Virus record (IMG/VR): IMGVR_UViG_3300023184_000121 | Location: 1-62,817 of that record | Strand: one strand, 5' to 3' | Length of the DNA: 62,817 bases | Origin: a virus | Notes under the pieces: generated by a model | Database searches by the model: none | Seen by the model: only the letters and a program-made list of their open reading frames with translations | What the model was told of the DNA's origin: nothing | In this document: positions 10,001 through 35,593 of the stretch, in pieces | Position numbering within the stretch: position 1 is the first letter of the stretch | Layout: each line of letters starts with the position of its first letter | Position numbers and translations under genes: made by a program

Positions 10001-13000
10001 GATTTTGCCGTTCATCAGCTTGCCTCTCATCAGCTTGTTGAACTGCTCAATCGTCGCAACGTCCGCTTCTGTCGCAAACCGAAACGGAGTGTCGATCAGG
10101 TGTATTTTTTCTACTCCGTTTGCATCGATCCCGGAAACAACATTTCCGGCGTGAGCATCCTGAAGAAACACTTTCGCCTTGGGGTTGTAGTATTCTAAGT
10201 GCTTGTAAGACGGAACTTTGAAAAAGTTTCTTTCTGCCAAGAAGTCGCTGATTTGATCTTGAGACAATGGAGTTTTGCTGATTTTGACGTAGGGCTGTCT
10301 TGTGACCACATATGCCCCGGCGCGGCGCGGATCCGTGTATTCGGCACCGCCTCTGAACATCGCAAGCGCATCAAGCGCACTTGAGCCTAGAACAGACTCA
10401 GCATTGAGATCGTTCAAGAACTCAGGCTCTCCCGAATCTGGCTTTACCTTTTGATCATGTACTCCCTGAATTGAAATTTCCGTTTCCGGGAAATAACGAT
10501 TGTGGATTTTGATTCTGTCAAAGTAGTCGCTCCAGTTGTTGTGGAACAACGGAATGTTCGTTCGCTTTTCAACAAATGGACTCCCCTTATCAAAGGCAAC
10601 AAGGTGCTCTGCTCCCTTCGTTCCTCCCGACTCTCTCCACCGTTTCAAAAAGTCAGAGGGATCCAGCAGCATATCATGCTGCGCTGCCGCCTCAACTAAG
10701 GCCGCGTCCTGTGCGTGTTTTGCGTCCCTAGATGATTGCCTGCTCTCAGATTCGCCTCGAACTCTTTTTGCCTCGCTATCCGTTCCTCGAACGGCGTCTT
10801 CGAGTAGTCTTGCACTGCCGCGAATCTCGCCGGAAGGTCTCCCAGCCTCTTGTGGATCTCGGTCGCGTCCTGCTCCACCAAGGCGAGCCTCTTCTCTAGT
10901 GTCTCGTTGTCCATATTTAATAATATCTGTAAACTCTTTGTCTTCTTTTGGTGCCGCTTCTGTCAAGTTGAATCGGGTGTCGCTTCCGGCTTTCTCCCCG
11001 GGCTCCCCGGCGAACCTTGCCTGCCCGGCCTTAACGGCGCTTTGCATTTCGGGCGTGATGGCTACCTTCCAGATGGGGGCAAGTTCTGGGTTTTCAAATA
11101 CTTCTCCAGCTTTAGTTTCAGATCGATCAATGGCTCTCTGAGCGCCTTCACGGCTAGTGTATCCGTCGTCTGAAGGAATATCTCTGTTCCCGCGAACCGA
11201 CCATGCCATATCAGTTACAACGTCAGACTTTTCAACACTTGCCCCCCACTGCTTGACGTATTTGCCAATCTCCTTTGGAAGCATGACGTCGTAAAAGCCC
11301 TTCATGCCTTCTCCGCCAAGCTTTAAATCAACGCCATCGTATACTTCTCTATCTCCAGCTTCTTTTTGATTTTCGACTATTTTTTTTGCCAGTTCTTTGC
11401 CAATTGTCGCTTCAAGCTCGGACTCGGTTGTGATTCCTTTTTGAAAAACAGCAACTCCTTGATCTCTACCTTCAATGTGCCAGCCATCTTCTTCCCTGCA
11501 AACAAGCAAAGCGTCAATTTTTGAGGCTAATTTATATCGATCAGCCTGCGCCTCCCCGGCAGTCCATCCAATCCACTCTTTGCCGTCGGCAACGGCTTTC
11601 TGTAGCGCGTACTTGAAAAGCTGAATGCTGTAATCATTGCGAAACGGAGCGTCTGAAATGCCTTTTGTATAATGCTTTTCCTTGCCTGACTTGTGCGCCT
11701 CCATTTCGGACTCAACGTCATGTAAGGCAAGGTTTATAACGTCAATTTCGTTTAAAATTTTTGCTGTGGATTCATTGATTTGATCAACTTTTTTAATTTG
11801 CTCTGCGCTCATTTCATCCCGCCTGCCCGGCATTGATCGCAATTCTTTGCGAGCGTCTTTGTAAGCCTTAAAAAGCCTTTCGCTTTCTTCATTTAAAACA
11901 GCAATGTCCGACTCGTATTTTGGGCGCATCGCCTCAAACGAGATTCTTTCCCTGTATCCAATCGGCTTATCGTTTTCGTCTTTTTTGCGAGCATCCTTAT
12001 GCAAATCAGACTGCAACTCTTCGATCAAGCGACCAGTGCCGTGGTCTGCTGTCCTCATGTGCGCGACGTAGTTTTCAACGTCTTGAAAGTGGCGAGATGT
12101 GTAAGATCTAATTTTGTACTGGCCTGAATTTATCCTGTCCGAAAGCATCTTAAAAGCAGCATCTTGCGTCGGCCCGTAGCCATAGTTTGTTAAATTCGGA
12201 ATTCGTGCCTGAATGCCATCTTCGGTCTTTGTGTATGTAACATCAGACGGGTCAAAAACAGGCGGCATACGGAGAATAACTTCTTCGTAGTTCTTACCCC
12301 CGGGAAGCGCGTACTGGGAATATGTGGTCGGGTCTTGGCCCCTAACCTCTCGCATCCCAACCATCGACTCAGCATCCGCCTGAATAGACTCATCAATCGC
12401 GTCTAAAGCTTCTTGCTCAGATTCGTAACTTCTTTCAAATCTATGATACGAGCCGTCATCAAGCCTAGTCCTTTGAATTATGCTATCACTAAGGGCATCA
12501 ACAATGTTCCATTCTCCAGTTTCGCTTATGCTCGCATAAAGGTCAGAGTCGTTTTTCAACTCTGAGTACAGCCTCCTTATGCCGTCATCCATTGCCTTTT
12601 TGGCGGCTTCGTATGTGTCGTAAGTCTCGGTCTCTCCTTGGTACGTTACGTCATATTTTGAAATCTTGTCATTCTGACTGAATGTTTGAACTTCAAATTT
12701 TGCGGCGTAGTTGCTCTTCAAAAAGTTGGCAATGTCCTCTTTGGACACAAAGCCTTTTTCGGCCTGCAACTTCTCAATGTGGGGAATGATTCCACTCCAC
12801 TTTAGCTCGTCTGGCTTAACTCCAGACCCTTTTTGCGGATCCAGAATACCCTTAATTTGCTCGGCAGACGCCTTGCTTGGCATTTTGTCCAGCAACACTC
12901 GCCCGGCCTTAGAGTAGAAGCCGGGAGCAACCATAGTCGGGTCTTCCTCTGCTTCCGGGCGCTCTCCAGCAAACTTAACTCTACTGATGTTTCGCGCAAC

Positions 13001-16000
13001 AATCCCTCCCCTTGGCGCCGGGCGCGGCTCAATTGCTTCGACATCGCTAAGCGGGAACCCCCACTTGGAAGCGCCGGGCTTGATGTCGTATTTGGATCCA
13101 GCAGGCACAAGGTGTCTACGCTCGTCTGCCCGGAAGCTCGCCTCGTCCTTGTACTCGATCGGCTCTCCGATATTTGCAAAGCCAACAATCTTGGCGTCGT
13201 CCGCTGTCTTCTTAGTTGAAATAAGCCCAACGCGCTTGCCAATGTAGGACTTTAGCGAAATTGGGTTATCGCGGGTCTCAATCGTCTTTTCTCCGCTCAG
13301 GATTTGAGCCGTAAACGGCAACTCAGAATCGTTGATGTTGATTCCCATCCGAGGCAAGACGCGCTCGGTTTCTTTGGCTTGCCGTTGAGGAGCCGTCTCC
13401 GGCGTCTGCCCCGCCTCACGAGGCTCCCCGGCAAGGTTGTAGATTGCCTTTCCGTAGTCTACCGGGAGCTTCGGCGCTGTAGGATCCGGGTTCAAAACAA
13501 TCCCGGCGATGTGCCGCAAGTTTCTCGAGCGAACAAGCACGTTCGGGTTGGATGACTTCTCATCAGCCTTTTGTTCAGCCGTCAGCTTAACATTCGGGAG
13601 CACCGTCCTGTCGTCATTTGTGTGGACGGTCTCTTTGTTGTACATATTCAAAAAGTCATTGAATACGTCGCGCTTTTGCTTGGCCTTTGCCTCGTTTGCG
13701 TCAAGCCCCACCCAGCCTTCTCGCCCCTCCATCCAATTGCGAAGGTACACGTTAGCAAACTCGTTAACAAAATTGTTTTTGTTGAAGTTCCAGTCCTTCA
13801 GACGACTGGGCATATGCTGCGCCCAACGGTCGAGCTTCTCTTCCATCGAGGAGACGTCAAACGTCGTGACTAACCAAGTGCCAGCCTTTGAAAGGTGAAG
13901 CCCAATCGGAACCATCTCGACGTGCTTTGGCGAAAACTCGACGTAGGATCCGTTGCGAGCGTATCGGTTGGCGTAGTCAATAATGTAGCGTGATCCGTCG
14001 GCCCGATCAATTGCGTCAGTGAGCGTAAACAACAGCGTCTTTACGGATAGCGGAACGACGTTTTCTGGCAGTGCTGCGATTGCCCTTTTTTGCGCGTCCG
14101 TAAGCTTGCCGCGATACGTTAAGCCGTCTTCGGAAACAGCCCGGAACCTTCCCGGGGTGCCTTCATCTCCAGAGTTGTCGATAGCGTAGCGAATTGCTGC
14201 CTCTCGATTTCGGATGGTCTTCTTTACGTTAGCTCCACCGAGTTCAACGGGAACTCCGTTGTTATCGTAAATAACCTCTCTGCGAATTGTGACCTTCCCG
14301 CCTTCAGGCACGTTAATGAAGTCCGGGAGGGATCCAAATCCCCGCACTCGCTTTGGCTCTGCCTTCCCCGTCTCCGGGTTAACGGAGTGCTCCCAATCAC
14401 CTTCAAAAGTGCCTTCAGGCAGATCAACAATTTGCTTCTCTCCGGCACTGTTTTCGATTGTAGCGCGAACCCGGGTCGCAAACATCCCGTCGTCTTTTGC
14501 GTAGTGATCGACGAGCTTTTTGTTCTTGGTGAATTCGCCCTTGGTGATTTTTGGGGTCACCTTCGAGTTGTTGTACTGCATCTGCCCTTGCAAATCCGAA
14601 ACAGCGCGAAGCACTCGAATATTTGCGTCCACCAACTCTTTTGAAAAACGAACCCCTGTCTCTCCACCAGTATAGTCTCCAGCAGATAAATTTGCCGCCT
14701 CCCTGACAGCGTTCCCGAGATTTGTCTCCGCCATGTACTTGGTCGTGAACCAGTCCAGCAACCCGGCAACCGGGCCAAATCTGTTGGAATTAATGCCATG
14801 CAGGAATCCTGAACCGATCAAATCGGCCAGCACTTCTTCTTTCATGTACTCAACAGCGGCAACATCGTTGACCTTGTTGTTTTCAGCATCCCACAGACCG
14901 TTTGACTCGCACCATTTTTGGAAGTCGTTGTCCTTTAACCCGCCAAGATATTCTTCGCGAAAAAGCTTCAGCAGTTCTTCCGGCTTCAAAGCCCCCTCTT
15001 CTTTCCGAAGCACCTCTCCATTCAAGTCGACGTCTTCATGTCCAAATAGGTACGCGACAATTCCTGCGTACTTTTCATTGAACTCCTGTCGGTCTCGAGC
15101 GGCGTGCCCGGCCTCGTGCGCTATCAGTTGAGCCAACGGCTTATTGTGCGCCGTCTGAGCTTGATTCACGCGATCCATGTTGATGATGAGCGCGTCTTTC
15201 AAGGGATCAAAAACAATTGCCCCTTCGGACGTTTTGATCTGACCATTTGGAAGCATGACGTCTCCAGAGCGGAGCATTCGCATTCCCCGGCGATTCGCCA
15301 TATCCCGTAAGATTGCGTCGTTATGAGCTTCCACTTCGGGCGTAGCGTTTGTGAATAGAAGCGGGTTTGCGGCGCGTAGCTTCTGATAAATCTCCTCCCC
15401 GGTGAGAAGCTCAATACCAAGCGTCTTCCCGGGTGTCAGGGCGCCGGAGTACGTCTGATCAATATCCGCCATCAGGTGACCCATTTCGCGCTTGTACGCG
15501 AGCCTAGTGCCGTTTGTAGCGTTCTCCATCCCGTGATACTGGGCGGCGAGCCGCCTTGCCTTAGCTTCAGACTCAGACAACTTTGCCTGAGCCGCCTCGA
15601 TTCCATCATGGGCAGCCTGAACTTGTTCCGGCGTGCCCCCTCCAAAAACAGCCTGCTGCCTCGCGGCCTCGGCCTGCTGAAGCTCTTGTTCTGCCTCGAG
15701 AACTTTGGAGTGCTCTTTTTCAAAAGCGATTCTGTTTTGTTCAATAACAGCCTCCCAGCTCCCTACTCTTTCAAAGTTTGCACGAGCCTCCGGGGACATC
15801 GCATTAATTGTGATGCGGGCCTGATGGTCGTTACGATTATTTTCGGCGGCTGCCACTTTTGGGTCTTTCCCCATCGCGTGCGAGTATACCCCCGTGATCC
15901 ACGATAGGTATGCGCCCTCTCCCCAAGTGTCCAACATCCCGACGGCGTCTTGGTTATTAAAGATACCAAGCGGGATGGCAAGCTTACCCATCTCTACGCC

Positions 16001-17830
16001 CCGCCCGATGTAGTCTGTCAAGTTTCTGGCGGCCCAAGAAATCGATGAAGGTTTTACGCCAACCTTTTCAGCGGTAGCCGCAAGACCTTTCGTCCATCCC
16101 GAGGACTCTGGCATGATCGACGCCGCCGTAAACGCATCAATACGCCCTCCTCCAGCCGCCCTCCTGCCCCGGATAAGGTCTCTGGCAACCATCGGGGCAG
16201 CCAATAGCCCGGCGCCGCCAAGAGCGCCGTAAATGAACCCTTGTGACGGGTTGTCGCTGTTTATCGCACTTCCCGCAGCCCCAGCTACGCCCGCCGCCCC
16301 GGTCACCTCGAGGGCACGCCTAGCGGCGCCTTGAGCCTCTTTTGGAAGCTTTGATATAGCGTCATCAATGCTGTTCGAGATTCCCTGAATCTTTTGACCT
16401 GCTTTTTCAGCAAGATTTCCGGCGCCAATCACGACATCTCCAGCAACGTTTCCCTTTTGAATAGCCTCTGCCTCGGCTTGCAGTCTCGCATTTCGTAGTG
16501 CATCGGCAGCCTCTGGGCCTTGCTCAATATAAGCAAGCTTCTCTTCCGCTTGAAGCCCAGCGGTCTCAGCATTAAATCTTTCCAGATACCGCGCTTTTGC
16601 TGCGCCGGACATCCCGGACGTCTCGCGATTAATTGCTCTGGATACCGCTTTTTCAATGCGCCTAGCAGTGCTAAATCCATGAAGTATTTTTTCGGCGTAC
16701 CAAAACTCATTTCCGCCGGGAACCGCAAAAGAGGCGAGCAATTCGGCGTCTGGGTTCTGCTTGTATTTTTCGGTTTCCTGCATCAGATCCTGAATGATCT
16801 GATCCCCGGCGCCCTTGGCTTGTTCTACCCTAATTTTTTCGGCATTCTCCCTAGTGCGCTGCCCCGGGGGCAACGAGGCCATAATATCTTCAACAGTTGG
16901 CCCGAGCGTCCGCACTGCTGCTGCTGCTGTTGCCCTTGATGCCGGATTGTCTATGATACGAGATAAGACGTGCGGGTTGTCGTAGTCGTACCATGCATTT
17001 CGAGCCCTCGCCGCTTCCCGGTCATACGCATTTTGAAGCGTTTCTTCTCGAGACTGAACGTGCCCGTCCCAGTCAGACGGGTAGTTTTCATTTATCAGAT
17101 CCACAAAGGCATTTCCGCCTTCAAAGTTTTCTTTTACGCCTCTGGCGATATGTTCGGCAGTGCTTGCAATGACGTTTACTGGGGCAAACAGTGTCCCGGT
17201 ATCATCTCTGCTTTGTTGCGTGTTTCGACGCTTTGCGGCGACGGCAGGGTCTTCAAAATCCTGCTCCAATGAACTGCCATCAACATCCCCGGCGCCAAGG
17301 TCAGCTATTTTTCTAAGGGCAGCCATCCCATAGTCAAAGGCGCCAACTCCAAGGCTTTTAGCCATGTGTGGAGCAGACTTTATGATTTTGCCAACCGCTT
17401 CTCCGACAACATCCGAAGCCGGGCGATTCCTTTGATACTCCTGCTTGATGTCGCTCTGTTCCTTGCTCATCAAGTGCCAAGGAATGTACTCATTAATTTT
17501 CTCAATCCTCTTTGGGTCTCGCTCCAGTCCAAGAAGATCAATTTCTTCTGGGGTCTGCTGGTGAGGCCCGCGAGCGTTCATCTCGGCGAGGCGCTCTGCA
17601 AATGGATCCGGCGCCTCTTCGTTTGCCCTTCCTAGATTAGACAGTAAATTTCCGCCGCCAAAAGTTCCGTAATTCCCCATCGAGGATCCCATCGAGGATC
17701 CCGCTGCTGGCGCCGATTCACCTGCGCTTGCTTGTGTCGCTGGCTTCTGTCCAGAAGGCTCTCCGAGTGCTTGTTTCTTTAAGCGCTCAATGTCTGCCGC
17801 CACTAAAGGGTCAATGGATTCGTCTGGCAT
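7046..17830 (-). CDS. Giant polyvalent phage protein (3594 residues)
   Basis: Polyvalent proteins are multi-domain chains thought to be injected with the genome to take over the host. This one starts at 17830 (TAATATG junction). Visible parts: a hydrophobic Gly/Ala helical region near 517-545, a coiled coil near 700-730, a zinc-metallopeptidase motif HEAGH at 905-909, an ASCH-like region near 1500-1605 (TAQILSGEKTIETRDNP), a polyvalent-type module with EELQSDLH near 1938, a kinase-like DAHAGN near 2555, and a C-terminal region with FGPKIGSF near 3305 ending in an acidic tail. Linkers of the type RFAGEPGEKA recur near 2272 and 2660. It fills about 17 percent of the window. No RNA polymerase motifs were found. 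Confidence 0.85.
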   Translation of the reverse strand: MPDESIDPLVAADIERLKKQALGEPSGQKPATQASAGESAPAAGSSMGSSMGNYGTFGGGNLLSNLGRANEEAPDPFAERLAEMNARGPHQQTPEEIDLLGLERDPKRIEKINEYIPWHLMSKEQSDIKQEYQRNRPASDVVGEAVGKIIKSAPHMAKSLGVGAFDYGMAALRKIADLGAGDVDGSSLEQDFEDPAVAAKRRNTQQSRDDTGTLFAPVNVIASTAEHIARGVKENFEGGNAFVDLINENYPSDWDGHVQSREETLQNAYDREAARARNAWYDYDNPHVLSRIIDNPASRATAAAAVRTLGPTVEDIMASLPPGQRTRENAEKIRVEQAKGAGDQIIQDLMQETEKYKQNPDAELLASFAVPGGNEFWYAEKILHGFSTARRIEKAVSRAINRETSGMSGAAKARYLERFNAETAGLQAEEKLAYIEQGPEAADALRNARLQAEAEAIQKGNVAGDVVIGAGNLAEKAGQKIQGISNSIDDAISKLPKEAQGAARRALEVTGAAGVAGAAGSAINSDNPSQGFIYGALGGAGLLAAPMVARDLIRGRRAAGGGRIDAFTAASIMPESSGWTKGLAATAEKVGVKPSSISWAARNLTDYIGRGVEMGKLAIPLGIFNNQDAVGMLDTWGEGAYLSWITGVYSHAMGKDPKVAAAENNRNDHQARITINAMSPEARANFERVGSWEAVIEQNRIAFEKEHSKVLEAEQELQQAEAARQQAVFGGGTPEQVQAAHDGIEAAQAKLSESEAKARRLAAQYHGMENATNGTRLAYKREMGHLMADIDQTYSGALTPGKTLGIELLTGEEIYQKLRAANPLLFTNATPEVEAHNDAILRDMANRRGMRMLRSGDVMLPNGQIKTSEGAIVFDPLKDALIINMDRVNQAQTAHNKPLAQLIAHEAGHAARDRQEFNEKYAGIVAYLFGHEDVDLNGEVLRKEEGALKPEELLKLFREEYLGGLKDNDFQKWCESNGLWDAENNKVNDVAAVEYMKEEVLADLIGSGFLHGINSNRFGPVAGLLDWFTTKYMAETNLGNAVREAANLSAGDYTGGETGVRFSKELVDANIRVLRAVSDLQGQMQYNNSKVTPKITKGEFTKNKKLVDHYAKDDGMFATRVRATIENSAGEKQIVDLPEGTFEGDWEHSVNPETGKAEPKRVRGFGSLPDFINVPEGGKVTIRREVIYDNNGVPVELGGANVKKTIRNREAAIRYAIDNSGDEGTPGRFRAVSEDGLTYRGKLTDAQKRAIAALPENVVPLSVKTLLFTLTDAIDRADGSRYIIDYANRYARNGSYVEFSPKHVEMVPIGLHLSKAGTWLVTTFDVSSMEEKLDRWAQHMPSRLKDWNFNKNNFVNEFANVYLRNWMEGREGWVGLDANEAKAKQKRDVFNDFLNMYNKETVHTNDDRTVLPNVKLTAEQKADEKSSNPNVLVRSRNLRHIAGIVLNPDPTAPKLPVDYGKAIYNLAGEPREAGQTPETAPQRQAKETERVLPRMGININDSELPFTAQILSGEKTIETRDNPISLKSYIGKRVGLISTKKTADDAKIVGFANIGEPIEYKDEASFRADERRHLVPAGSKYDIKPGASKWGFPLSDVEAIEPRPAPRGGIVARNISRVKFAGERPEAEEDPTMVAPGFYSKAGRVLLDKMPSKASAEQIKGILDPQKGSGVKPDELKWSGIIPHIEKLQAEKGFVSKEDIANFLKSNYAAKFEVQTFSQNDKISKYDVTYQGETETYDTYEAAKKAMDDGIRRLYSELKNDSDLYASISETGEWNIVDALSDSIIQRTRLDDGSYHRFERSYESEQEALDAIDESIQADAESMVGMREVRGQDPTTYSQYALPGGKNYEEVILRMPPVFDPSDVTYTKTEDGIQARIPNLTNYGYGPTQDAAFKMLSDRINSGQYKIRSYTSRHFQDVENYVAHMRTADHGTGRLIEELQSDLHKDARKKDENDKPIGYRERISFEAMRPKYESDIAVLNEESERLFKAYKDARKELRSMPGRRDEMSAEQIKKVDQINESTAKILNEIDVINLALHDVESEMEAHKSGKEKHYTKGISDAPFRNDYSIQLFKYALQKAVADGKEWIGWTAGEAQADRYKLASKIDALLVCREEDGWHIEGRDQGVAVFQKGITTESELEATIGKELAKKIVENQKEAGDREVYDGVDLKLGGEGMKGFYDVMLPKEIGKYVKQWGASVEKSDVVTDMAWSVRGNRDIPSDDGYTSREGAQRAIDRSETKAGEVFENPELAPIWKVAITPEMQSAVKAGQARFAGEPGEKAGSDTRFNLTEAAPKEDKEFTDIIKYGQRDTREEARLGGAGRDRDPQEAGRPSGEIRGSARLLEDAVRGTDSEAKRVRGESESRQSSRDAKHAQDAALVEAAAQHDMLLDPSDFLKRWRESGGTKGAEHLVAFDKGSPFVEKRTNIPLFHNNWSDYFDRIKIHNRYFPETEISIQGVHDQKVKPDSGEPEFLNDLNAESVLGSSALDALAMFRGGAEYTDPRRAGAYVVTRQPYVKISKTPLSQDQISDFLAERNFFKVPSYKHLEYYNPKAKVFLQDAHAGNVVSGIDANGVEKIHLIDTPFRFATEADVATIEQFNKLMRGKLMNGKISQERYAELKPFLTDPKAPEYWEGGPKFSLPNEGSPGAQSTQSINQPRFAGEPGEKAVGDLELSPLTFTPKTITDERGMFSIVIGAKPGEHGYSFRTASELRDTLKTISGQKAAVETWGELQLKKQRQLELIAKADESAKNAKKPEKAAEFEAKKAAYAEKIALLDTQIEEMRSQFPEKMQNMSPEDAAWKAQVKKLNRSFEEMSLKATPAPFTANPLGIRSMAELGDAVHDILKSDGFNGILKDFFGLDGLDVRPIAGTWQGKVEPSFDLVHPDLTFDKAKQITQLLTLAFAQDAGITYKPSIDLKEGIQAAYLIHSERLTDDQLKLVFDKAREVGVDVSTTTDGKGIKALNFGTENFADKIKEIQTAASINQVHETLVDSELYETEKIFKGRDSQRILPNWLNATSGGQSLLQRSIDSLLIDYAKAAAAQGYIFDPALYAKRYGLSDSDAKYIIDKLYPTDPLTRSASPLLAGTEILPVRSTYTLAGKRETAVPDMIHALQNRAASDGVILPGDYSPRAMDIISSVVTDEVQQHMARAALNPKAPNAIGWYDAALKRMKGMYSQLFPWLEVGSPKHDADKSLIFDAVLGIASQGNDVFENAKMATRVTLMLEQGKTLPEIVTALHGTFGDKTAAIENNILKLHELLTRHTPSQLRAILFKTDTVANWNKKLKQDTSLYYNGEPLSVKGGKNQMVTGFMIFGPKIGSFINNLHGDYSTLTADLWYTRTWNRILGRSFKYDPLKEGNQFERFEDALIEEYNRNQTLKKGKDYTERVLIKKGEETPYLYGEDAPNLSKKEFHKLLEDSGALLEFAEHLEKVFRTGGFKGKTELRRAAKNWVQDRTTPLAAPRAANERAFQQTTMEDAQAKLARAGINVTIADMQAALWFNEKELFGKYGAATTGAEPADYADAAKFALDIIQAGGLFQVDRKGKTVRLLPGAEEAQLTGVKSPNKGLMKQLMEKEKAVKEAERLRKEAEGEEEEED

Positions 17831-21491: not shown

Positions 21492-21995
21492 TTAGCTGAC
21501 ATCATCTACCCCGCCTAAAAGGCTAAAGTCGGGTTCTTTGTTTGGGTTTGAATTCTGTTTTTTCTTTTTTGCGGCATCGGCTGCTTGTCCTTGCTTCTTT
21601 GCCCCGTAAACAGAAAGCCCCACACTCACCGCATTGTTTACGCCCTTCTCAACCCCTTGAGCTACCTTTTCCGATCCTGAGCTTTCGATGTTCCAAGGAC
21701 GGTCTGCTTCAAACGTAAGCGCGGTATCGTCCGATGTTTGACCGCTATTTCTTGGGTCGGTATTAAGTTCTTTTGCAGGGGCGCTTGGGGCGCTTGGGGC
21801 GCTTGCGCTCCCGGATCCGGCATTGGCTCTAGAAAATGTTGCTGCTAGGTTTGCCCACTTCTGACCATTGGGATCTGCGGCGCCGCTATTGGCCCCCATC
21901 TCATCGATAACTTTATTCCGCCGAGCTTCTTGCTCAGACTGAAAGTCTGGCGAGCTTGACGCGCCTGATTTGGATGATTCGGTAGATCCTCCCAT
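21492..21995 (-). CDS. Virion-type protein with RPW module, immediately after TfuA
   Basis: The 167-residue protein starts at 21995 (MGGSTESSKSG) after a TAATATG junction with tfuA; an upstream in-frame start would overlap tfuA. Its central segment RPWNIESSGSEKVAQGVEK resembles RPWDVPSSKSELVAGGIEK in the 652-residue protein, showing a shared module. The C-terminus is Lys/Asn-rich and ends DFSLLGGVDDVS. Being last in the YcaO-TfuA transcription unit, it is one candidate substrate or companion. Confidence 0.55.
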   Translation of the reverse strand: MGGSTESSKSGASSSPDFQSEQEARRNKVIDEMGANSGAADPNGQKWANLAATFSRANAGSGSASAPSAPSAPAKELNTDPRNSGQTSDDTALTFEADRPWNIESSGSEKVAQGVEKGVNNAVSVGLSVYGAKKQGQAADAAKKKKQNSNPNKEPDFSLLGGVDDVS

Positions 21996-21996
21996 A

Positions 21997-22998
21997 TTAT
22001 TTTTTGTTGAAGGCTTGAAATTGGATGGCAAGAGGGGCGACCTCGGAACCGCAAGTGGTTGAATTGAACCAGTCGAGCATATTTTGCCTTATTGCCTTCC
22101 TGATTGCAAACTTGTTCCACTCTTGGTCAGAAATTCCATTTATAGCCATCCAGTGCGCGGCAGATTCCGGGTCAAATATACCAAGACTGCTCCACATTTT
22201 AAACGATTGTTCCTGAATGTCTGAATCGGAAGCCACAACGCCCTGATTCATGGCCAACTCAGTCAGCGCGTAAAAATCAAACGCCTCGTCCTTTAAAATC
22301 GCCGTCTCCCATTTCCTTACCCCGTTCACAAGGGTGTCGTTTTTCAAAAGCGCCACAAACAAAGAGTTTAAAGCGTTTTCAGACGGTGCCGCCGGAATAC
22401 GAGGAGTTTCAATCATCGCCTTTAAGATTGCCTCCTCGGCGTCTATTTTCTTTTGATCGACGTACCAATCTCGAATCAATTCATGCTCTTGAACCCGGTG
22501 CTTAATCGCCGACCAATTCCGCTCCGGGTAGTAAATCTCGGCGCACTCTAAAACCGCTTTTTCGGCGCTTGTAATTGCTCCCTTTGCCTCGAGGGCAAGG
22601 CAGGTTGCCAAGATGTTAACGAGCGGCACAGAAGCTGGCTCGTAGTCGCCTTCAACGTCGGCGTGAGCAAGAGCAACATCAGCATCGTCTGTGCAGGTGC
22701 CGTCTTTGTACCATTCGGCAATTTTACCGTAGACCTCCATCCCATATCGCTCGCATTCAACGCCCCGGAGGGCGCCAAGCGAGGCAGCGCCAATAACCCG
22801 GACGCCCGCCTGAATAGCAAAAAGGATCTCCTTGTGCCAAGGGGCCAAGTGATGAGTGAAAAGACCGTCAATCAGCACGATTGTTTTAACGCCGTCCAAA
22901 ACAGCGGTCGCAATGTCGCCCTGTTGCGCCGGGGGATAGACCTCAGCTCCCGGCGGAATTTGAGCCCTTGTTGGGCCGATAAAAATCCTCACTTGCAC
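21997..22998 (-). CDS. tfuA: TfuA-like thioamidation partner of YcaO
   Basis: The 333-residue protein starts with GTG at 22998, six bases after an AAGGA-type site, overlapping ycaO by 10 bases. The N-terminal 200 residues carry TfuA core features: GPT at 8-10, PPAQQGD, LIDGLF at about 42-47 and AASLGALRGVE at 71-81. In methanogen and RiPP systems, TfuA helps its YcaO partner put sulfur into the peptide backbone, forming a thioamide. The C-terminal third is helical and less typical. The ycaO adjacency makes the call firm. Confidence 0.88.
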   Translation of the reverse strand: MQVRIFIGPTRAQIPPGAEVYPPAQQGDIATAVLDGVKTIVLIDGLFTHHLAPWHKEILFAIQAGVRVIGAASLGALRGVECERYGMEVYGKIAEWYKDGTCTDDADVALAHADVEGDYEPASVPLVNILATCLALEAKGAITSAEKAVLECAEIYYPERNWSAIKHRVQEHELIRDWYVDQKKIDAEEAILKAMIETPRIPAAPSENALNSLFVALLKNDTLVNGVRKWETAILKDEAFDFYALTELAMNQGVVASDSDIQEQSFKMWSSLGIFDPESAAHWMAINGISDQEWNKFAIRKAIRQNMLDWFNSTTCGSEVAPLAIQFQAFNKK

Positions 22999-24137
22999 CG
23001 TCCTTTCTTGCCAAACAAATGGCTATACCCGGCCAGTCCCGGGGCAAGAACTCGAACAACAGAGCACGGATACGGATGCTGAAATTCCTTGTAGTAAATT
23101 GATCCGAATCCGGCATCGGAAAGTCGCTGCTTCAAAACTTCAATATCCCCTGAAAATGTGTCTGTCGAACAGTCGCCGTGCATGGCGCTCGATACGACGT
23201 TTTTGCTCGAAAGGATTTTGGCGACGTTGTCAGAAGTGTCATTCTTTTTGTTTTCAACAAACATCTGGTGCGAGATGTCGTCCCTCGATCCAGACATCCA
23301 AACCACCCGCCCTTGGACAGCCTCACACAAGGCCCGGCATTGAGCGACCACAGGATCAAGGTGGGAGGCATAGCCCCGGTAGATCCCAGTCCCGCGCTCG
23401 GAGTCGTACAAATACGCCATGAATGTCGGAACTCCAATATCTCCAGTGCAGTCAAAGATGACTGGGAATATCCCCTTTTGACGCAACGCGCCAACAAGGC
23501 CAAGCAGTGTTGAGTTGGCAATTGTGTCCAGATCAACCCGTGGAGGCGGATCAGGAAGACTCATAGCGGCATCAACTTGATCGCGCTCAATAACCTCGTA
23601 AATCCCCCCGGCAAGCGCTTCGTCTAGCGAATTACCCGAAGATAGACCGTTGCTTGATGAAACGAAACACGAGTGAAAGAGAGGGAACACTGGCTGCCTC
23701 GGAACTAGCTGAACAACCTCAACTGGAACAAATGCGCTTTCCCCAAGAAGGCCGGAAACCGACGTCCACCTACGCTCGACCCTTGGGTCGTAAAAAGCGC
23801 CTCGCATTAACTGAAACCGGGTCTCGTGACCATCAAGGTCGGCGCCGGAAGCGCTGAATGCCGGGAGTTTCGCTGTTTCGCCAACGTGCCGCTCAAATCC
23901 TTCCATCACGGCACTCGCTCTGGCTGCCGATTTGGTTGCCCCCTTCCCGGAGTCTGCTGACAAATAAATAGCATCAGGCCGGATGCACTGGGAAACGTGA
24001 ATTCCAGAGCAATCAAGCCCGGTAATATCTGAAACCCGAGTGATCCCGGCGGCGAAATAAAAAGGACGCATCCGCTCGAGCGTTTCCTCCGGGGTGCAGG
24101 ATCTTTGCGCCCCGTCCAAGCGAAGCTTTATGCCCAT
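22989..24137 (-). CDS. ycaO: YcaO-domain ATP-dependent amide-modifying enzyme (TfuA-associated)
   Basis: YcaO enzymes phosphorylate a backbone amide with ATP so that a nucleophile can replace the oxygen; those paired with TfuA make thioamides. This 382-residue copy looks intact: G64-K65-G66 then S-A-V-M-E79-G-F-E82-R83, the SNGLSSGNSLDEA loop at 162-174 with EVIERD at 181-186, E272/Q275 and SGSRDD at 282-287, which together form the ATP/Mg site. It overlaps the virion-type gene upstream and tfuA downstream by 10 bases each, so the three are one coupled unit. A YcaO-TfuA pair inside a phage structural cluster is unusual. Confidence 0.92.
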   Translation of the reverse strand: MGIKLRLDGAQRSCTPEETLERMRPFYFAAGITRVSDITGLDCSGIHVSQCIRPDAIYLSADSGKGATKSAARASAVMEGFERHVGETAKLPAFSASGADLDGHETRFQLMRGAFYDPRVERRWTSVSGLLGESAFVPVEVVQLVPRQPVFPLFHSCFVSSSNGLSSGNSLDEALAGGIYEVIERDQVDAAMSLPDPPPRVDLDTIANSTLLGLVGALRQKGIFPVIFDCTGDIGVPTFMAYLYDSERGTGIYRGYASHLDPVVAQCRALCEAVQGRVVWMSGSRDDISHQMFVENKKNDTSDNVAKILSSKNVVSSAMHGDCSTDTFSGDIEVLKQRLSDAGFGSIYYKEFQHPYPCSVVRVLAPGLAGYSHLFGKKGRCK

Positions 24138-25141
24138 TTTCTTTCAAGGGAGCAGAGAACAACCTTGGATACCATTTTTGCAAGCGATGAAGACTCAACA
24201 ATCTCGGCGATTTTTTGTCCTTTCCTGCAATACCCAGAGATAAACCAATCTGGAGCAGATCTGAACATTGCCGCCCGAAATCTCTTCCATCTGTCTGTCT
24301 TGGTGCCAAATGTTGCCCGGGCAACCCAGCAAGCGGCAACAGCAGCGCCAACAGCAGATCCTCCCGCGCCAATCAGTGCCCCAGTGGAGGCGTTCTTTGA
24401 CTGGGCATTATTGGTAGCGTTCGTAAGCATTGCCTGCTGGTAGTTTTGCCAGTTCGAGTTGTGGGCGTTTACGGCGCCGCTCCCCGTCGCCATCAGTTGA
24501 TTGATCCAATCAGTCGTCGATTGTGCGTTGCCCTGAGCGGCTCCAAGAACCCCCGCCCGCTGAGCCTGCCTGCCTTGCATTGCCTGAGCCTGCTGTCCCT
24601 GCTGCATCTTTAGCAGCGTTCCGGCGTCAATTCCAACTGGCGCTTGCGGGTTTGCTGCAACGTAATTTTGAGCCTTTTGTTCTTGAGCGTTCCGAAACGC
24701 CTCTCCCTCCTGAGTAGCCGCATCAAAAAACGCAGAATCGCGCACTGTTCCAGATGCGCCTGAGCCTAGATAACGAGTGAGCCCAGTCTTTCGAGTCCAG
24801 TCGTCCATTCGCCTCTGGGCGCCGCCGTTTAAGTCCTCAGATATCATCTGGGGAATCTGACGGCGCATCTGCGCTAGTGCTGGGTTGTTTTGGTTCTCTA
24901 CCTGCGAGTTCCTGAATGCGTTAACAGCCGCCACTTGTCCGGCTTGATTTTGCAACCCTTGCTCGCCCCATATGTCCGGCTGCCATGATTCCGTGGGCAT
25001 CCCGGCGGCATACCCAAGCAACCTGTTTTGGTTTTGCAGATTCCCGATGCCAGCATTGGTCAACAAATTCATCTGAGCGATGCTCAGAGTGTCGTCTGGT
25101 GGGCGAATAGCATTGCCCGGGTCAACTGTTGTTCCTCCCAT
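24128..25141 (-). CDS. Virion-type protein with C-terminal CWVAR module, leader of the YcaO-TfuA unit
   Basis: The 337-residue protein starts MGGTTVDPGN after a TAATATG junction. Residues 1-250 are Gln/Asn/Ala-rich helices of the internal virion type. A Gly/Ala hydrophobic stretch (ALIGAGGSAVGAAVAA, 255-270) leads into CWVARATFGT at 271-280 and a basic, aromatic C-terminus with two more cysteines. I know this CWVAR-type tail from the ends of other phage structural proteins; its function is not known to me. The overlap with ycaO makes this tail the first candidate for modification. Confidence 0.65.
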   Translation of the reverse strand: MGGTTVDPGNAIRPPDDTLSIAQMNLLTNAGIGNLQNQNRLLGYAAGMPTESWQPDIWGEQGLQNQAGQVAAVNAFRNSQVENQNNPALAQMRRQIPQMISEDLNGGAQRRMDDWTRKTGLTRYLGSGASGTVRDSAFFDAATQEGEAFRNAQEQKAQNYVAANPQAPVGIDAGTLLKMQQGQQAQAMQGRQAQRAGVLGAAQGNAQSTTDWINQLMATGSGAVNAHNSNWQNYQQAMLTNATNNAQSKNASTGALIGAGGSAVGAAVAACWVARATFGTKTDRWKRFRAAMFRSAPDWFISGYCRKGQKIAEIVESSSLAKMVSKVVLCSLERKWA

Positions 25142-25142: not shown

Positions 25143-25529
25143 TTAAGCAGGTTTGTAAAGTTCTCTATGCAGTCTGACTAGACCAAGTTTCGACATGGTC
25201 TCTTCCGGGAAGTTTCCAAGCCCTCCTCGGTTGTCAAATGGTACTCCAAGGTGCCCGGGCTTTCCAGACAATTGCGTTGCCGCCTTCCAGTCTCGCATCA
25301 CGTCAATAACGTCTCGTGGAGTGGTAAATTCCGGGTGAAAGGCCGGGTAAACAACTGGGATGAAAATGTGATCGGAATACCCAAACAGCCTGCCTTCGCG
25401 AAAATGCGCGTACACATTTGTGTAAGCGTTTGGAACAATCTCGTGATCAAACGATTTGGCAAACTCTTGGATTTTGGAAAAATCCTCGGATCCCGGGGCG
25501 ACAAATTTGTAATCAATTGATGGTCTCAT
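25143..25529 (-). CDS. Hypothetical 128-residue protein of the tail/ejection cluster
   Basis: ATG at 25529 within an ATGA overlap. It is a mixed alpha/beta protein with Y-A-H-F-R-E-G-R-L-F-G-Y, a P-V-V-Y-P-A-F-H-P stretch and a conserved-looking P-R-D-V-I-D-V-M segment, suggesting a compact enzyme- or adaptor-like fold. I do not recognise the family. It lies between the nozzle-side small gene and the YcaO-linked virion protein. Confidence 0.6.
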   Translation of the reverse strand: MRPSIDYKFVAPGSEDFSKIQEFAKSFDHEIVPNAYTNVYAHFREGRLFGYSDHIFIPVVYPAFHPEFTTPRDVIDVMRDWKAATQLSGKPGHLGVPFDNRGGLGNFPEETMSKLGLVRLHRELYKPA

Positions 25530-25772: not shown

Positions 25773-27899
25773 TTAGCACGGGTTCTTGATTCTGTACTGC
25801 TGCGCCGCAGTCGTTGCCTGCCTAGTGGCTATCGCCGTTGCCTGAATGTCAGCGTCTTCTTGAGAGACATACGAAATAAACTCTGCCGTTGATGTCCCGG
25901 AGACAGAGGGGCTCCCATTTGTGCATGAAAGCTTGATCGTGATTGTTTTTTGAGAAACCCAAACGTCCTTTGTGGTAGCAACGTCTTTTGATGGAGTCTC
26001 CAAGTTCACAATCATTGAGCTACCATCCTCTGCGACAACGCACGGCACGCTTTGATCCAAAGAGAGCCTGCCAACTGAAGGCTCTGGGTACGGATCCAGA
26101 AACATTCGGATCGACTCAACCCCAAATGCCCCACACCACTCCATCAGCAAAGAGAAGGCTTTATCGACTTCTGGAGAGTTAATCGACTCGCAAGTGCTTG
26201 TGTTTGTTCGATGAACGCTTTCTGTTGTGAGGCGCCTATACTGGGTTCTCAGCAGTCCCATCTCCCGAATCTTGTCTGCATCTGCCGAGTTTTCCCATTG
26301 GTACTTGTCGGTGATGGCAATTATTCGCTGCTGCAAAATATCTTTGTACTGCCCTTTTGAGCCCCTGTACGAGACCTTTACGTCAACGCTTCCAGATATT
26401 TGAGAAGCGTCTATTTCGGCGTACACCATTTGCTTTAGATCCATTGCGTCACCTAAAAGCCCGGTCTCCATCGAGGCATAAATTCGCTGATTCTTTTCTG
26501 TCGCAGACCCGTCTTGATTGATCGTCAAATAAGTGTCGAACCTGTTCGGAGTGAACGCTTCCCAAATGTGATTAAAGGAGGCGTCCTCGGTTGCGCCGTA
26601 GTCCACGGAAAATGCAAAAAGACGAGGTTGATTTCCAATAAACCCAGACGTCCATTCAATTGGACGGATTCCAGTCCAGATTCCGGCCCATGCCGGAGAC
26701 CTAGATTGATTCCATTCTGACGCCGGGACGTAGTCCAGAACCATTGTTGCGCTGTTTCCCTTCTCTAGGTAGGGAATTGAAGTCAAAAGGTAGTTTTCAA
26801 AAGAAGCAGCGCAAATTTGAGTGATATCCTGAGCCATCAATCGCTTCACTCGAGCCATTTCCACGTCCTTGTACAAAACCTGCGACGACAAGTACGAAGA
26901 TGCCGCAACGTCGGCGCTTACAAGCCCCCCTTGGCTAAACCACCACATCATGCCTGCCTGAAAGCAGATCGATTTTCCGGCAACGCATCCAATGTTAGGG
27001 TAAAGCGTATTTTGAAAGTTTGGAGTGGATGCCCAAAGCGACCTGTCGAGAACCCCGGAGGCAAATGAAAATGTGCTGCGATCACTGAACACGAAGAGCC
27101 TAGAGTCATTATTCTGCCCAATGTGGTCTGTCATGCCCGTTACGGGCCTTGGAATTGAAAAATCGCCCCTCCCCGCCCCAGACACCCGCTCTGTCCAACC
27201 AAGTGGATTTCCTAGATCTGAAGCTTGGATCACGTTCTCCGAGGCAACCCATAGTCTATTTCCTGAAAACGCCATCCAAAATCCAACAGGAGCATCAGCG
27301 GCCCGTTGACCTGTTAAATCCGATCCATCCCAATAATGCGGTGTGGACACGCCATCCTGAATCACAACAATTCGATGCGATGGAGTCACCGTTACGCCGC
27401 CAGCCGGGTTTGTTTCTGCGCTTTTTGTCGCAATAGCAAAGTTGACCCGATCAATATTTGGATCCAGCTCAATTCCAGAAAGCCTGTAATCATCCCAGTC
27501 TTTAGGCTGGGTTAAAGGAAAGGGCGCGTAGTAAACTCGCCCGTTAACGCAAAAAACGATGTAGGATATCTCGCGCTCAGAGGATTCCTGCCCGGATGGA
27601 GTAAATATTGTCGGCGCCCTGTAGACTATTGACCCGGTATTAGTTGTGATTGTAGTGGCTGCTGATGCTTGCTTGTTTGCGTTGAAAACAACCCCTCCTT
27701 GAAAGTTTCCTTTAGGCACAGAAAGCCTCATTGAAAACCCGGGCCTAGTTTGAACAATGCCGCCGCGCACATTTATGTTCACTCCCCACTTAAACTGGTC
27801 TTCTGGAAGCGCCCAAGGCGAGCGCACCGAGTTTACTCCATGCACCCATCCGGCAGAGGCTTTTTGCTGCCGCCCGGAAGTAATGTTTGGACTCTTCAT
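25773..27899 (-). CDS. Tail nozzle / stabilisation protein
   Basis: The 708-residue, beta-rich protein has an early segment N-V-R-G-G-I-V-Q-T-R-P-G-F and a WDG...P-V-G-F-W-x-A-F-S-G-N-R-L-W-V propeller-like region. These are typical of podovirus nozzle or tail-tube-B type proteins that form the distal channel of the short tail. It follows the adaptor gene, as expected. The TGACATG junction leaves a one-base gap. A late insert near 560-690 is less typical. Confidence 0.8.
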   Translation of the reverse strand: MKSPNITSGRQQKASAGWVHGVNSVRSPWALPEDQFKWGVNINVRGGIVQTRPGFSMRLSVPKGNFQGGVVFNANKQASAATTITTNTGSIVYRAPTIFTPSGQESSEREISYIVFCVNGRVYYAPFPLTQPKDWDDYRLSGIELDPNIDRVNFAIATKSAETNPAGGVTVTPSHRIVVIQDGVSTPHYWDGSDLTGQRAADAPVGFWMAFSGNRLWVASENVIQASDLGNPLGWTERVSGAGRGDFSIPRPVTGMTDHIGQNNDSRLFVFSDRSTFSFASGVLDRSLWASTPNFQNTLYPNIGCVAGKSICFQAGMMWWFSQGGLVSADVAASSYLSSQVLYKDVEMARVKRLMAQDITQICAASFENYLLTSIPYLEKGNSATMVLDYVPASEWNQSRSPAWAGIWTGIRPIEWTSGFIGNQPRLFAFSVDYGATEDASFNHIWEAFTPNRFDTYLTINQDGSATEKNQRIYASMETGLLGDAMDLKQMVYAEIDASQISGSVDVKVSYRGSKGQYKDILQQRIIAITDKYQWENSADADKIREMGLLRTQYRRLTTESVHRTNTSTCESINSPEVDKAFSLLMEWCGAFGVESIRMFLDPYPEPSVGRLSLDQSVPCVVAEDGSSMIVNLETPSKDVATTKDVWVSQKTITIKLSCTNGSPSVSGTSTAEFISYVSQEDADIQATAIATRQATTAAQQYRIKNPC

Positions 27900-32071: not shown

Positions 32072-32668
32072 TCAAGACGATAACACTAATTCTAGGTTGT
32101 CGCCTTCTTGAGCACCAACGGAGTACTTCAGTGCTGCATACAACCTTAGCGTAAAATCTAGATGCTCAGGATTTGTCAGCGAATTGCTCTCAAAAACAAT
32201 TTTACTTGGTGCAAGGCTTGGCTTTTTAAGCATCTCAATAAAAAACCACTTCAAAACAGAACAATCGCCGCCCTCAGTGTCAATTTTTAACAAATTTATG
32301 GACTCCACGTTGTTTCCAGAAATCAGCTCGGAAATAGGCATTAACGGAACCTGATCAACGGTTAGCGCGTGCGTGCATTGCAGTTTGTAATGTTGAGGAT
32401 GTGGCCCCCCAATTGAATTACACCCCCTCAACCAGTCAGGAAGTCCAAGATTGGCAATTACGTCAGGATGAACAAAATAGACATCGCAATATCCGCCTGT
32501 GTTGTCAAATGAGATTGCCGCGTGGATCTTTTTGACGTTTTGCCTTTCTGGCAAAGCTGCCAAATAAAACCCAATAGGCTCAACACACAATCCCACTGCG
32601 TCTGGTGCTGATTTTTCAACAACTGACTCAAAGTCAGACGTGCCAATTTCTATAAAGTCGTAATGCAT
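32072..32668 (-). CDS. FkbM-like SAM-dependent methyltransferase
   Basis: The 198-residue protein starts MHYDFIEIGTSDFESVVE, an opening SAM-binding strand with the G-T-S-D loop, and contains NLLKIDTEGGD near residues 130-140, the signature of the FkbM methyltransferase domain (O-methylation, often of sugars). The ATG at 32668 follows TAGT, the end of a glycosyltransferase gene. With three glycosyltransferases and a cupin-like gene upstream, it likely caps or decorates a glycan. Confidence 0.8.
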   Translation of the reverse strand: MHYDFIEIGTSDFESVVEKSAPDAVGLCVEPIGFYLAALPERQNVKKIHAAISFDNTGGYCDVYFVHPDVIANLGLPDWLRGCNSIGGPHPQHYKLQCTHALTVDQVPLMPISELISGNNVESINLLKIDTEGGDCSVLKWFFIEMLKKPSLAPSKIVFESNSLTNPEHLDFTLRLYAALKYSVGAQEGDNLELVLSS

Positions 32669-32669
32669 A

Positions 32670-33563
32670 CTATTCAATTAATTTTACCCAAGCTTCAACG
32701 CGAGTGCGCCAGTCAAAATGGTCTCTTGCATAAGCTTGTGAACGCTCGCAGGCTTGTTTATAAATTGTCGGATCGCGATGCGCTAGAAGCGCGGCCTTGG
32801 CATCTTCGACCCATTCATCTTCTGGAAGGCGCAATGGAATGCCAAAATTTCCGTCAAAATAACCAACCCCGGCGGAGCACAAAACCAATCGACCTGCCGC
32901 TGTTGCTTCCAGCATAGGCAAGCCACAGGCTTCGTAATCCGATGGAAGTAAAAGTGCGTCTATTGACTCATAAAACCCAGCCATGCACAGATGATGCATG
33001 AAGGTGTGATCGCGAAACTCAAGCGGCAACCCGTCCAGCGTCTTTGAGACCAAGTGCTTTCTTTTGAAATCCTTACCAGACGGGCGCTCGTGAAACAGCG
33101 CACCAGCATACCCAACAACGCGCAAAGAGTTGCTGGCTTTTGAATAAAAATGATCAAAATCAATTCCGTTTAAAACGACGTCAGGAATCCGTTGAACCCC
33201 AAATTGTTTACTCGACTCCACGAGTGTTGGATTGATTACTCCGTAAGCTTTTAATTCATCAAATACCTCTGCTCCTGAGGTTTGCACGCACTGGTGAATG
33301 TCTGTGTCATTGTGGGCGACAGTCACAATCCGATTTTTTGGAATTGCAAATGTATGCAATAGATGGGGTAGCGCTTGTGGAATAGTGTACCAGACTTGAA
33401 ATTTTTGCCTCAAATACTCGATCTCTGTTGCGCTGTAAGAGCTTCTCCAGTCGAGAATGTGAGCGTAAATTCCGCGCTCCCAAAACCTTTTGATTAAAGC
33501 GTTGTGAATCTGACCGAAAGCCCATGCGTTCTCGATGAAGAATAAAACGGATCGGCTATACAT
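32670..33563 (-). CDS. Glycosyltransferase (GT-B type), tandem copy 2
   Basis: The 297-residue protein starts MYSRSVLFFIENAWAFGQIH. The C-terminal half has S-D-Y-E-A-C-G-L-P-M-L-E-A-T-A-A-G-R-L-V-L-C, the nucleotide-sugar-binding E-x(7)-E type motif of GT-B enzymes. It is a clear tandem duplicate of the gene at 33565-34458: most residues match and both end V-K-L-I-E. The chain is short for a GT-B enzyme (usually 350-400), so the N-terminal domain is reduced in both copies. Substrate unknown. Confidence 0.82.
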   Translation of the reverse strand: MYSRSVLFFIENAWAFGQIHNALIKRFWERGIYAHILDWRSSYSATEIEYLRQKFQVWYTIPQALPHLLHTFAIPKNRIVTVAHNDTDIHQCVQTSGAEVFDELKAYGVINPTLVESSKQFGVQRIPDVVLNGIDFDHFYSKASNSLRVVGYAGALFHERPSGKDFKRKHLVSKTLDGLPLEFRDHTFMHHLCMAGFYESIDALLLPSDYEACGLPMLEATAAGRLVLCSAGVGYFDGNFGIPLRLPEDEWVEDAKAALLAHRDPTIYKQACERSQAYARDHFDWRTRVEAWVKLIE

Positions 33564-33564
33564 A

Positions 33565-34458
33565 TTATTCAATTAATTTTACCCAAGGCTCGATGCGGTC
33601 ACTCCAATCGAAATGGTCTCGAGCGTACTGCTGGGATCGCTCGCAGGTCTCTCGGTATATTATTGGGTCTTGGTGCGCCAATAGGGCGGCTCTGGCGTCC
33701 TTAACCCACTCGTCTTCCGGGAGACGGCAATTAACTCCAAAATTTCCGTCAAAATAACCAACTCCAGAGGAACATAGCACTAATCTTCCGGCGGCAGCCG
33801 CCTCCATCATGGGCAAGCCGCAGGCTTCATAGCTAGAGGGCAGCAAAAGAGCGTCTATCGTCTGGTAGAACGAAGCCATGCACAAGTGATGCATGAAATT
33901 GTGGTCTTTAAACTCAAGCGGCAACCCATCCAGCACCCTTGGGATAAGTTCCTTTCGTTTACAGTCAACTCCATCGGGACGGTTATGAAACAGCGCCCCG
34001 GCGTACCCGGCAATCTTCACTGCATTGCCTATGGGCGAGTAGAAAAAGTCAAAATCAATGCCGTTGAGTACGACATCTGGAACTCGCGTCAGCCCAAACT
34101 GCTGGCTAGACGATACCAGCGACTCGTGGACGGCTCCATAGGCTTTGAGGCCGTCAAACATCTCAGGGCCAGCAGCCATGACTGCTTTGTGGATGTCGTC
34201 GTCAGCGTGCGCGACCGTAATGATGCGTTCTTTTGGAATTCCAAACGTCTGCATCAAAACAGGAACCTGCGGCGGGTTCGTGTACCAGTACTCAAACTTT
34301 TGCCGCAAGTACTCTATCTCAAGGGCACTGTAGCTCAGATTCCAGTCGAGAATGTGAGAGTAAATACCATGCTGCCACAGTCTCTTCACAAGTGCATTGT
34401 GAATTGTTCCAAACGCCCAAGCGTTACGAGTAAAAAACAGGACAGAATTTTTATACAT
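33565..34458 (-). CDS. Glycosyltransferase (GT-B type), tandem copy 1
   Basis: The 297-residue protein starts MYKNSVLFFTRNAWAFGTIH. It contains S-S-Y-E-A-C-G-L-P-M-M-E-A-A-A-A-G-R-L-V-L-C, as in its tandem copy downstream, and ends in the same V-K-L-I-E before TAATATG. The start overlaps the upstream GT4-like gene by eight bases, which argues for coupled translation. Duplication with divergence suggests that the two copies add sugars to different acceptors or linkages. Confidence 0.82.
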   Translation of the reverse strand: MYKNSVLFFTRNAWAFGTIHNALVKRLWQHGIYSHILDWNLSYSALEIEYLRQKFEYWYTNPPQVPVLMQTFGIPKERIITVAHADDDIHKAVMAAGPEMFDGLKAYGAVHESLVSSSQQFGLTRVPDVVLNGIDFDFFYSPIGNAVKIAGYAGALFHNRPDGVDCKRKELIPRVLDGLPLEFKDHNFMHHLCMASFYQTIDALLLPSSYEACGLPMMEAAAAGRLVLCSSGVGYFDGNFGVNCRLPEDEWVKDARAALLAHQDPIIYRETCERSQQYARDHFDWSDRIEPWVKLIE

Positions 34459-35593
34459 ACAAGCTCTTGTAATTCAACCCGAGCGAAGTCAACGGTCGGT
34501 CATGTAGCTCATACCATCCATTTCCGCGCATCACATCCGAAAAGTCGTCAAATGCTCTCTGGAACTTAGGACGAACTGCGTCCAACGAGAAATTATCCTG
34601 AGCAAAACGAATCATTCGATCCCGGTTAATGGTCGGAACCAATCGAATGGCCCGAAGGATATCTCCCATCGTGGTACATCTGAACCCATTCACTCCATCT
34701 ACGATGTATTCCGTCATTGCTCCTGCATCAGTGCAGACCGGGACACACCCGCTCAACATCGACTCAACAGCGGTTCCCCCAAACGGTTCCCAGTACGTTG
34801 AAAGGAGGAATGAAAAAGATGCTTCTCCAAGAAGCCGTTTCCGGGTTTCGAGATCAGCGTATCCAATGTACTCGACGTGATCGGGCCATTTCTCGTATCC
34901 CACATCCTGCGGGCCTCCCTGCCCGGCTATGACCAATTTGACGCCAGCTCGGAACGAAACCTCAATTGCAATATCAACGCCCTTATTTGGGCCAATCCGA
35001 CCCAATGCAACCGCATAAGGCTGGCGCTCGCTTTTTGCCTCGAAGTCTCGAAGGTCAAAATAATTTGGAACGACTCGCCCGTACCATTCCGGGTTACAAT
35101 ACGCAACTGTCTGCGTCCCGGCAAAAGCCGCTTTAAGCGGATAGGACTCGTAGCAGCGAAATTGAGCAAAGGCGTATCCACACCCAATGCCGGGCTCAAC
35201 GACAATCAAGTCGCCGTCTTTATTTGCCTCATGCGCGGACTGAGCTGTACCTCCCCAGAAGCACAAAACAAAGTCCCCCCGTTGTTTTCGAGCATAAATT
35301 TCCCGCCCAGCGTTTTCGTTGAACGTCTTGTGGGCGTGGTCGTCAATTGAATGCTTGAACAAGCCCTTCTTCCAGTCGTATCCCCCGTAAGCCTGCTCGA
35401 GCGTGTCATTGTCTGTGACCGTCACCTGCTCGTCGGCATCCGTCACGGAGTCCTTGTGGCCGTAATGGATCGTCTTGTAACCATGCCCCCGAAACATGGT
35501 CAGAAACTTACGCACCTTTTGGGTAAAGGCGCACGCTACATAGTCAGCGTTGGAGATGGTGTGAGGGAGTCCAAGGCAGTGTAGTTGAGTCAT
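34451..35593 (-). CDS. GT4-family-like glycosyltransferase
   Basis: The 380-residue protein has the GT4 layout: an N-terminal Rossmann-like half with V-V-E-P-G-I-G, then V-A-L-G-R-I-G-P-N-K-G-V-D near 190-205, V-I-A-G-Q-G-G, and S-T-Y-W-E-P-F-G-G-T-A-V-E-S-M-L-S-G near 263-280, the donor-sugar E-x(7)-E site. Full length for the family. It heads the three-glycosyltransferase run that follows the fibre genes and would start or extend a glycan. Confidence 0.88.
   Translation of the reverse strand: MTQLHCLGLPHTISNADYVACAFTQKVRKFLTMFRGHGYKTIHYGHKDSVTDADEQVTVTDNDTLEQAYGGYDWKKGLFKHSIDDHAHKTFNENAGREIYARKQRGDFVLCFWGGTAQSAHEANKDGDLIVVEPGIGCGYAFAQFRCYESYPLKAAFAGTQTVAYCNPEWYGRVVPNYFDLRDFEAKSERQPYAVALGRIGPNKGVDIAIEVSFRAGVKLVIAGQGGPQDVGYEKWPDHVEYIGYADLETRKRLLGEASFSFLLSTYWEPFGGTAVESMLSGCVPVCTDAGAMTEYIVDGVNGFRCTTMGDILRAIRLVPTINRDRMIRFAQDNFSLDAVRPKFQRAFDDFSDVMRGNGWYELHDRPLTSLGLNYKSLYV

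Follow-up and report, generated by a model that had tools for sequence, protein, structure and literature searches.

The genes considered here lie in IMG/VR record IMGVR_UViG_3300023184_000121, a viral contig of 62,817 bases that has no repeats at its ends; it is taken over its whole length and called the window below. It carries typical phage genes, including those for terminase, tail fibres, replication and recombination. On its minus strand, a gene of the virion cluster, here called X, is followed by genes encoding YcaO and TfuA homologues. The features of the locus are as follows.

21492..22031, minus strand: small virion-cluster open reading frame (ORF) overlapping the end of TfuA, with relatives in the closest phages only
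21997..22998, minus strand: TfuA, with its domain at residues ~18-174 and a helical C-terminal extension (PF07812, E 3.1e-33)
22989..24137, minus strand: YcaO, a predicted ATP-dependent backbone-amide activating enzyme of 382 aa (PF02624, E 5.5e-55)
24128..25141, minus strand: gene X, encoding an Ala/Gln-rich virion-cluster protein of 337 aa, the candidate substrate; overlaps the YcaO start
24131..24331, minus strand: CW domain of X (CWVARATFG...ERKWA), C-terminal and all-helical, from alignments and a structural model
25143..25529, minus strand: protein of 128 aa encoded upstream of X, conserved in phages resembling that of the window and in some others with YcaO
25773..27899, minus strand: virion-cluster protein of 708 aa, called nozzle-like solely for its position and used as a marker of the phage backbone

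From X to TfuA, each gene overlaps the next: the X stop and the YcaO start share 10 bp, and the YcaO stop overlaps the TfuA GTG. A TfuA start at 22992 is more likely than one at 22998, judging from the alignment of the family and from an overlap of 4 bp (GTGA) with the YcaO stop. A preliminary description of this DNA had placed virion-type genes on both sides of the pair. The overlaps are real, and gene order and relatives fit such a setting, but strong family matches are lacking: most neighbours have no PHROG or Pfam match, so that their virion-type character is suggested by order and relatives. The nozzle-like protein likewise has no match among PDB sequences.

Other parts of the window hold less expected genes. 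An Erv1/Alr sulfhydryl-oxidase family protein with a CPC motif is encoded at 6089-6763 on the minus strand (PF04777, 35.8 bits against a cut-off of 27.6); such a protein is unexpected for a bacterial virus, and it is also present on contigs L002, L016 and L018. An FkbM-type methyltransferase and three glycosyltransferase-like genes, possibly used for virion decoration, lie inside the virion cluster (32072-35593, minus strand). The cluster is closed by a single ORF of 3594 residues (7046-17830, minus strand), parts of which are common only to close relatives.

The YcaO is intact, matching profile positions 1-324 of 325 in PF02624 with 187.4 bits (cut-off 25.7), and its ATP motifs fall where the preliminary description put them (K65/E79/E82/R83, N163-D186 and E272-D287). 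The same description named loss of key ATP-site residues on careful alignment as something that would refute its reading. In an alignment that took in E. coli YcaO and methanogen and other YcaOs, every ATP/Mg-site residue is conserved: K65, E79, E82, N163, E181, E184, R185, R268, E272 and Q275 in the window correspond, in the same order, to K61, E75, E78, N181, E199, E202, R203, R286, E290 and Q293 in the E. coli protein. The gene is under strong purifying selection (dN/dS 0.03-0.10), and this, together with the complete ATP site, rules out a degenerate pseudogene.

TfuA matches PF07812 with 114.5 bits (cut-off 30), and the SLGALRGVE core and the overlap with YcaO first noticed by eye are both present. 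It resembles Methanosarcina acetivorans TfuA (6xp8) in a phmmer search (E 1.2e-27), and its AlphaFold model superposes on this thioamidation TfuA (Foldseek E 8.8e-12, TM 0.78 by target). It too is under purifying selection (dN/dS 0.06-0.26). By model scores and structures, both proteins are nearest to the methanogen system that thioamidates methyl-coenzyme M reductase (McrA). The best PDB match of the YcaO is MJ1094 (6pe3, E 2.8e-20), and its top-scoring NCBIfam model is the McrA-thioamidation YcaO, but at 174.7 bits against a cut-off of 365; for TfuA the nearest model is the McrA TfuA, with 133.5 bits against 235.2. The phage proteins are not members of the McrA thioamidation equivalogs TIGR03266 and NF033432 but probably work like them.

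The locus is not unique. Scans of viral contigs (given L numbers here) found 94 others with such a YcaO, 77 from the same YcaO clade and 17 divergent, making 95 with the window, and TfuA adjoins YcaO in nearly all that reach far enough, the window included. The domain scores, the 94 further contigs and the purifying selection together exclude a chance resemblance, and host contamination or chimeric assembly is ruled out by the recurrence of the genes on these contigs, from many metagenomes, and by the gene overlaps. Among 50,697 sequenced phages, no match was obtained for any of the queries YcaO, TfuA, L094 YcaO, X C-terminus and nozzle-like protein. A scan of viral contigs with TfuA as query also gave none, an outcome that reflects the limits of its exact-pattern method. 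No relevant literature on YcaO or TfuA in phages was found among open-access papers, and just as the preliminary description knew of no characterised phage system of this kind, the searches turned up no phage relative that had been characterised or annotated. No virus is known to carry out protein backbone thioamidation. In a tree, the viral YcaOs form two main clades and two single branches; the free tree prefers two acquisitions, and the AU test does not reject one (p-AU 0.085). The viral locus L077, unrelated in all other respects, has an N-terminal YcaO fragment at 4121-4321; this is a true remnant that likely reflects loss of the cassette. Shortly downstream of YcaO-TfuA in L102 (13105-14412), a Ro60/TROVE-like protein with a von Willebrand-type motif was recognised by eye from the translation.

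In 14 related contigs, an 88-residue ORF between YcaO and TfuA encodes a ThiS-family sulfur carrier (PF02597, 34 bits, cut-off 22.5) ending in AFAGG, and a scan for this ORF found matches only on contigs with YcaO-TfuA. TfuA reportedly takes its sulfide from a carrier of the ThiS type in thiocarboxylated form (PMC13063428, discussion). The window has no ThiS or ThiF gene, ThiS is missing from most relatives too, and ThiF was found in none of the 14 contigs tested. Charging of the carrier must therefore come from the host, which could also supply a ThiS-type carrier to the window phage. Four contigs (L026, L057, L066 and L068) have an additional small ORF of ~72-80 residues, without family assignment, between YcaO and ThiS. 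The intact ATP site, the pairing with TfuA, the McrA-type nearest models and structures and the ThiS genes of sister phages make phage-encoded protein thioamidation a well-supported prediction. By analogy with known YcaO-TfuA chemistry, an ATP-dependent exchange of oxygen for sulfur in a backbone amide (PMC5589413), the product would be a thioamide.

The candidate substrate is suggested by the gene directly upstream. In 84 of the 95 viral contigs (70 of 78 in the main clade, counting the window, plus 14 of the 17 divergent ones), the protein encoded just before YcaO ends in the CW domain, a helical domain of ~70 residues with the consensus CW[VIL]ARxx[FY]G...W..[FY]R...Y...G...A. No such domain occurs upstream of YcaO at any of 80 cellular loci. 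Beyond this domain, X is poorly conserved. In the AlphaFold2 model of X the CW domain has a pLDDT of 84-90 and the remainder is of low confidence; the CWxAR motif lies in a predicted helix rather than an obvious flexible loop. A fold search with X gave no match (its N-terminal 265 residues are modelled with low confidence), nor did a search of PDB sequences with the CW domain. Comparison with the internal (ejection) proteins of podoviruses gave no profile or fold match, and the resemblance consists of gene order and Ala/Gln-rich composition; gene order suggests that X may be an internal or ejection-type virion protein.

The CW domain is also found in many phages without YcaO. In Puniceispirillum phage HMO-2011, which unlike the window phage has no YcaO or TfuA match, the protein phage1322_25 has a CW domain 57% identical to a sister CW domain and precedes further virion-like genes. 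In favour of a link with the enzymes, the Glu following CWxAR is kept in each of the 29 phages that lack YcaO, whereas 54 of the 63 that have YcaO carry a replacement; these counts amount to only 2-3 independent contrasts. Conversely, X lacks the CW domain in L016-L018, L071, L203, L204 and L207, ending at an Ala-rich stretch where the domain would start; YcaO-TfuA is intact there, with 17 synonymous and 4 nonsynonymous differences between the YcaO genes of L016 and L018, and the domain was not found elsewhere on these contigs, which may be incomplete. In L008, YcaO-TfuA occurs at another place and is reversed, and the CW domain is still on the contig.

The best evidence for joint action of the CW domain and the enzymes is their apparent transfer as a unit, independent of the phage backbone. 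In phmmer comparisons, the X N-terminus, the 128 aa gene and the nozzle-like protein of the window all have counterparts in L002, L016 and L071, and a more distantly related nozzle-like protein occurs in L102, in the divergent YcaO phages and in the YcaO-less L090. What the window has in common with L003-L055 is limited to YcaO (369-489 bits), TfuA (260-328 bits) and the CW domain (58-85 bits); these phages show no detectable counterpart of the X N-terminus, the 128 aa gene or the nozzle-like protein, and similarity to the last of these cannot be detected in the backbones designated B and C. Downstream genes are likewise without detectable similarity between backbones that have the three in common, and queries from L013 and L020 give the same split, seen from their side. 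Since the CW domain, YcaO and TfuA are common to otherwise unlike backbones, a junction must lie inside X, just before the CW domain. YcaO similarity ranks the opposite way: divergent phages with the same type of backbone as the window reach 100-127 bits. The backbone split and this reversed ranking indicate that CW-YcaO-TfuA has a separate history, with the break inside gene X.

On this basis, the reading we prefer, with a probability of roughly one half, is that the locus is a transferable phage cassette for protein thioamidation, whose likeliest target would be the CW domain on an ejection-type virion protein that the phage itself encodes. The preliminary description had proposed thioamidation of an ejected phage protein or a host protein; thioamidation is well supported and the CW domain of X is, by linkage, the leading target, but the phages that keep the enzymes without the domain, and the many that have the domain without the enzymes, count against that choice of substrate. 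It is unlikely, if the most plausible of the other readings, that the pair modifies a host protein at infection, such as a ribosomal or envelope protein, with the neighbourhood of X serving as a tolerated site for late-expressed cargo. The retention of the pair in CW-less phages would suit such a target, as would L008, L009 and L023, where the pair lies elsewhere in the opposite orientation like an independent cargo unit, and E. coli YcaO does thioamidate a folded host protein, uL16 (PMC13063428). However, the CW domain travels with the pair between unrelated backbones, YcaO is in translational overlap with a gene of the virion cluster, a takeover enzyme would be badly placed among late virion genes, and no host protein is implicated. 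Somewhat less probable again is a substrate within the virion other than the CW domain, either a different protein or, within X, the Ala-rich segment or the N-terminal part. Where the domain is lost, X does persist together with its Ala-rich end, and several YcaO phages conserve the genes for the 128 aa and nozzle-like proteins, but besides the CW domain, YcaO and TfuA no gene of the cluster is detectable in all YcaO-bearing backbones.

Two further readings concern the chemistry or the kind of product. It is improbable that YcaO performs a different reaction (formation of an azoline or amidine, or one resembling proteolysis) with TfuA left over: although the superfamily is chemically diverse (PMC13063428) and the CW domain begins with an invariant Cys, TfuA shows purifying selection and accompanies YcaO on every contig of sufficient length, 14 contigs have a ThiS carrier in addition, and the nearest YcaO model and structure are of the McrA thioamidation type. 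Least probable is a small modified peptide, resembling a ribosomally synthesized and post-translationally modified peptide (RiPP), that the phage releases. Bacterial TfuA-linked YcaOs do occur mostly in thioamidated-RiPP clusters (PMC8120280), but no short precursor-type ORF beside the pair is common across these incomplete genomes, an 81 aa ORF being confined to the nearest relatives and a 72 aa ORF to some ThiS phages, and neither a transporter nor a peptidase is seen beside it. A thioamidated RiPP cluster was rejected for want of a common precursor ORF.

The phage pair resembles several known systems. As in the methanogen system, YcaO adjoins TfuA and has the same fold and ATP site; the methanogen pair acts on a whole protein and needs sulfide delivery, as is proposed for the phage pair. 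The phage pair differs in its viral genome, its substrate context, its sub-cut-off scores and its separate tree clades. The thioviridamide and thiovarsolin RiPP clusters also place YcaO beside TfuA, but the phage genes are linked to a virion protein domain and have no precursor peptide or tailoring cluster. E. coli YcaO has identical ATP-site residues and modifies a protein; it is encoded by a single chromosomal gene without TfuA and is ~200 residues longer. Some bacterial loci (L215, L219, L220 and L224) have two tandem YcaO genes before TfuA, and in L220 a ThiS-like ORF follows about 3 kb after TfuA. The CW domain itself recalls CFI-box-CTERM (NF041770), a C-terminal domain that starts C[FW]IA. 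That model weakly matches the CW domains of L007 (E 0.0014, 18.4 bits) and L003 (E 0.0037, 17 bits), below its cut-off of 40, and does not match that of the window. A link between CFI-box proteins and bacterial YcaO found no support, with a CFI-box in only 6 of the 37 genomes whose YcaO loci were examined, and none of the cellular YcaO loci compared here carries a CW-type domain.

In the proposed model, the cassette of CW domain, YcaO, in some phages ThiS, and TfuA would install a protein backbone thioamide during virion production. TfuA would free sulfide from a thiocarboxylated ThiS/MoaD-type carrier, the host's in the case of the window phage and phage-encoded in 14 relatives, while YcaO would use ATP to activate a backbone amide whose oxygen is then replaced by sulfur. 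The likeliest substrate would be the CW domain of the neighbouring protein X, which may, judging from gene order, be internal or ejection-like. The fuller proposal, that a viral cassette modifies the C-terminal domain of its own genome-delivery protein and so makes the first viral backbone thioamide, is tentative and falls a little short of an even chance.

Backbone thioamides in proteins are known only from McrA and uL16 (PMC13063428). The enzymes here are known and the chemistry probably is too; what is new is the biological setting, with a specific candidate substrate in the small, concrete CW domain linked to them. If the model is correct, the phage protein would be, to our knowledge, the third known to carry a backbone thioamide and the first in a virus, the cassette would offer a naturally mobile means of thioamidating whole proteins, and thioamide chemistry would serve to build or arm virions.
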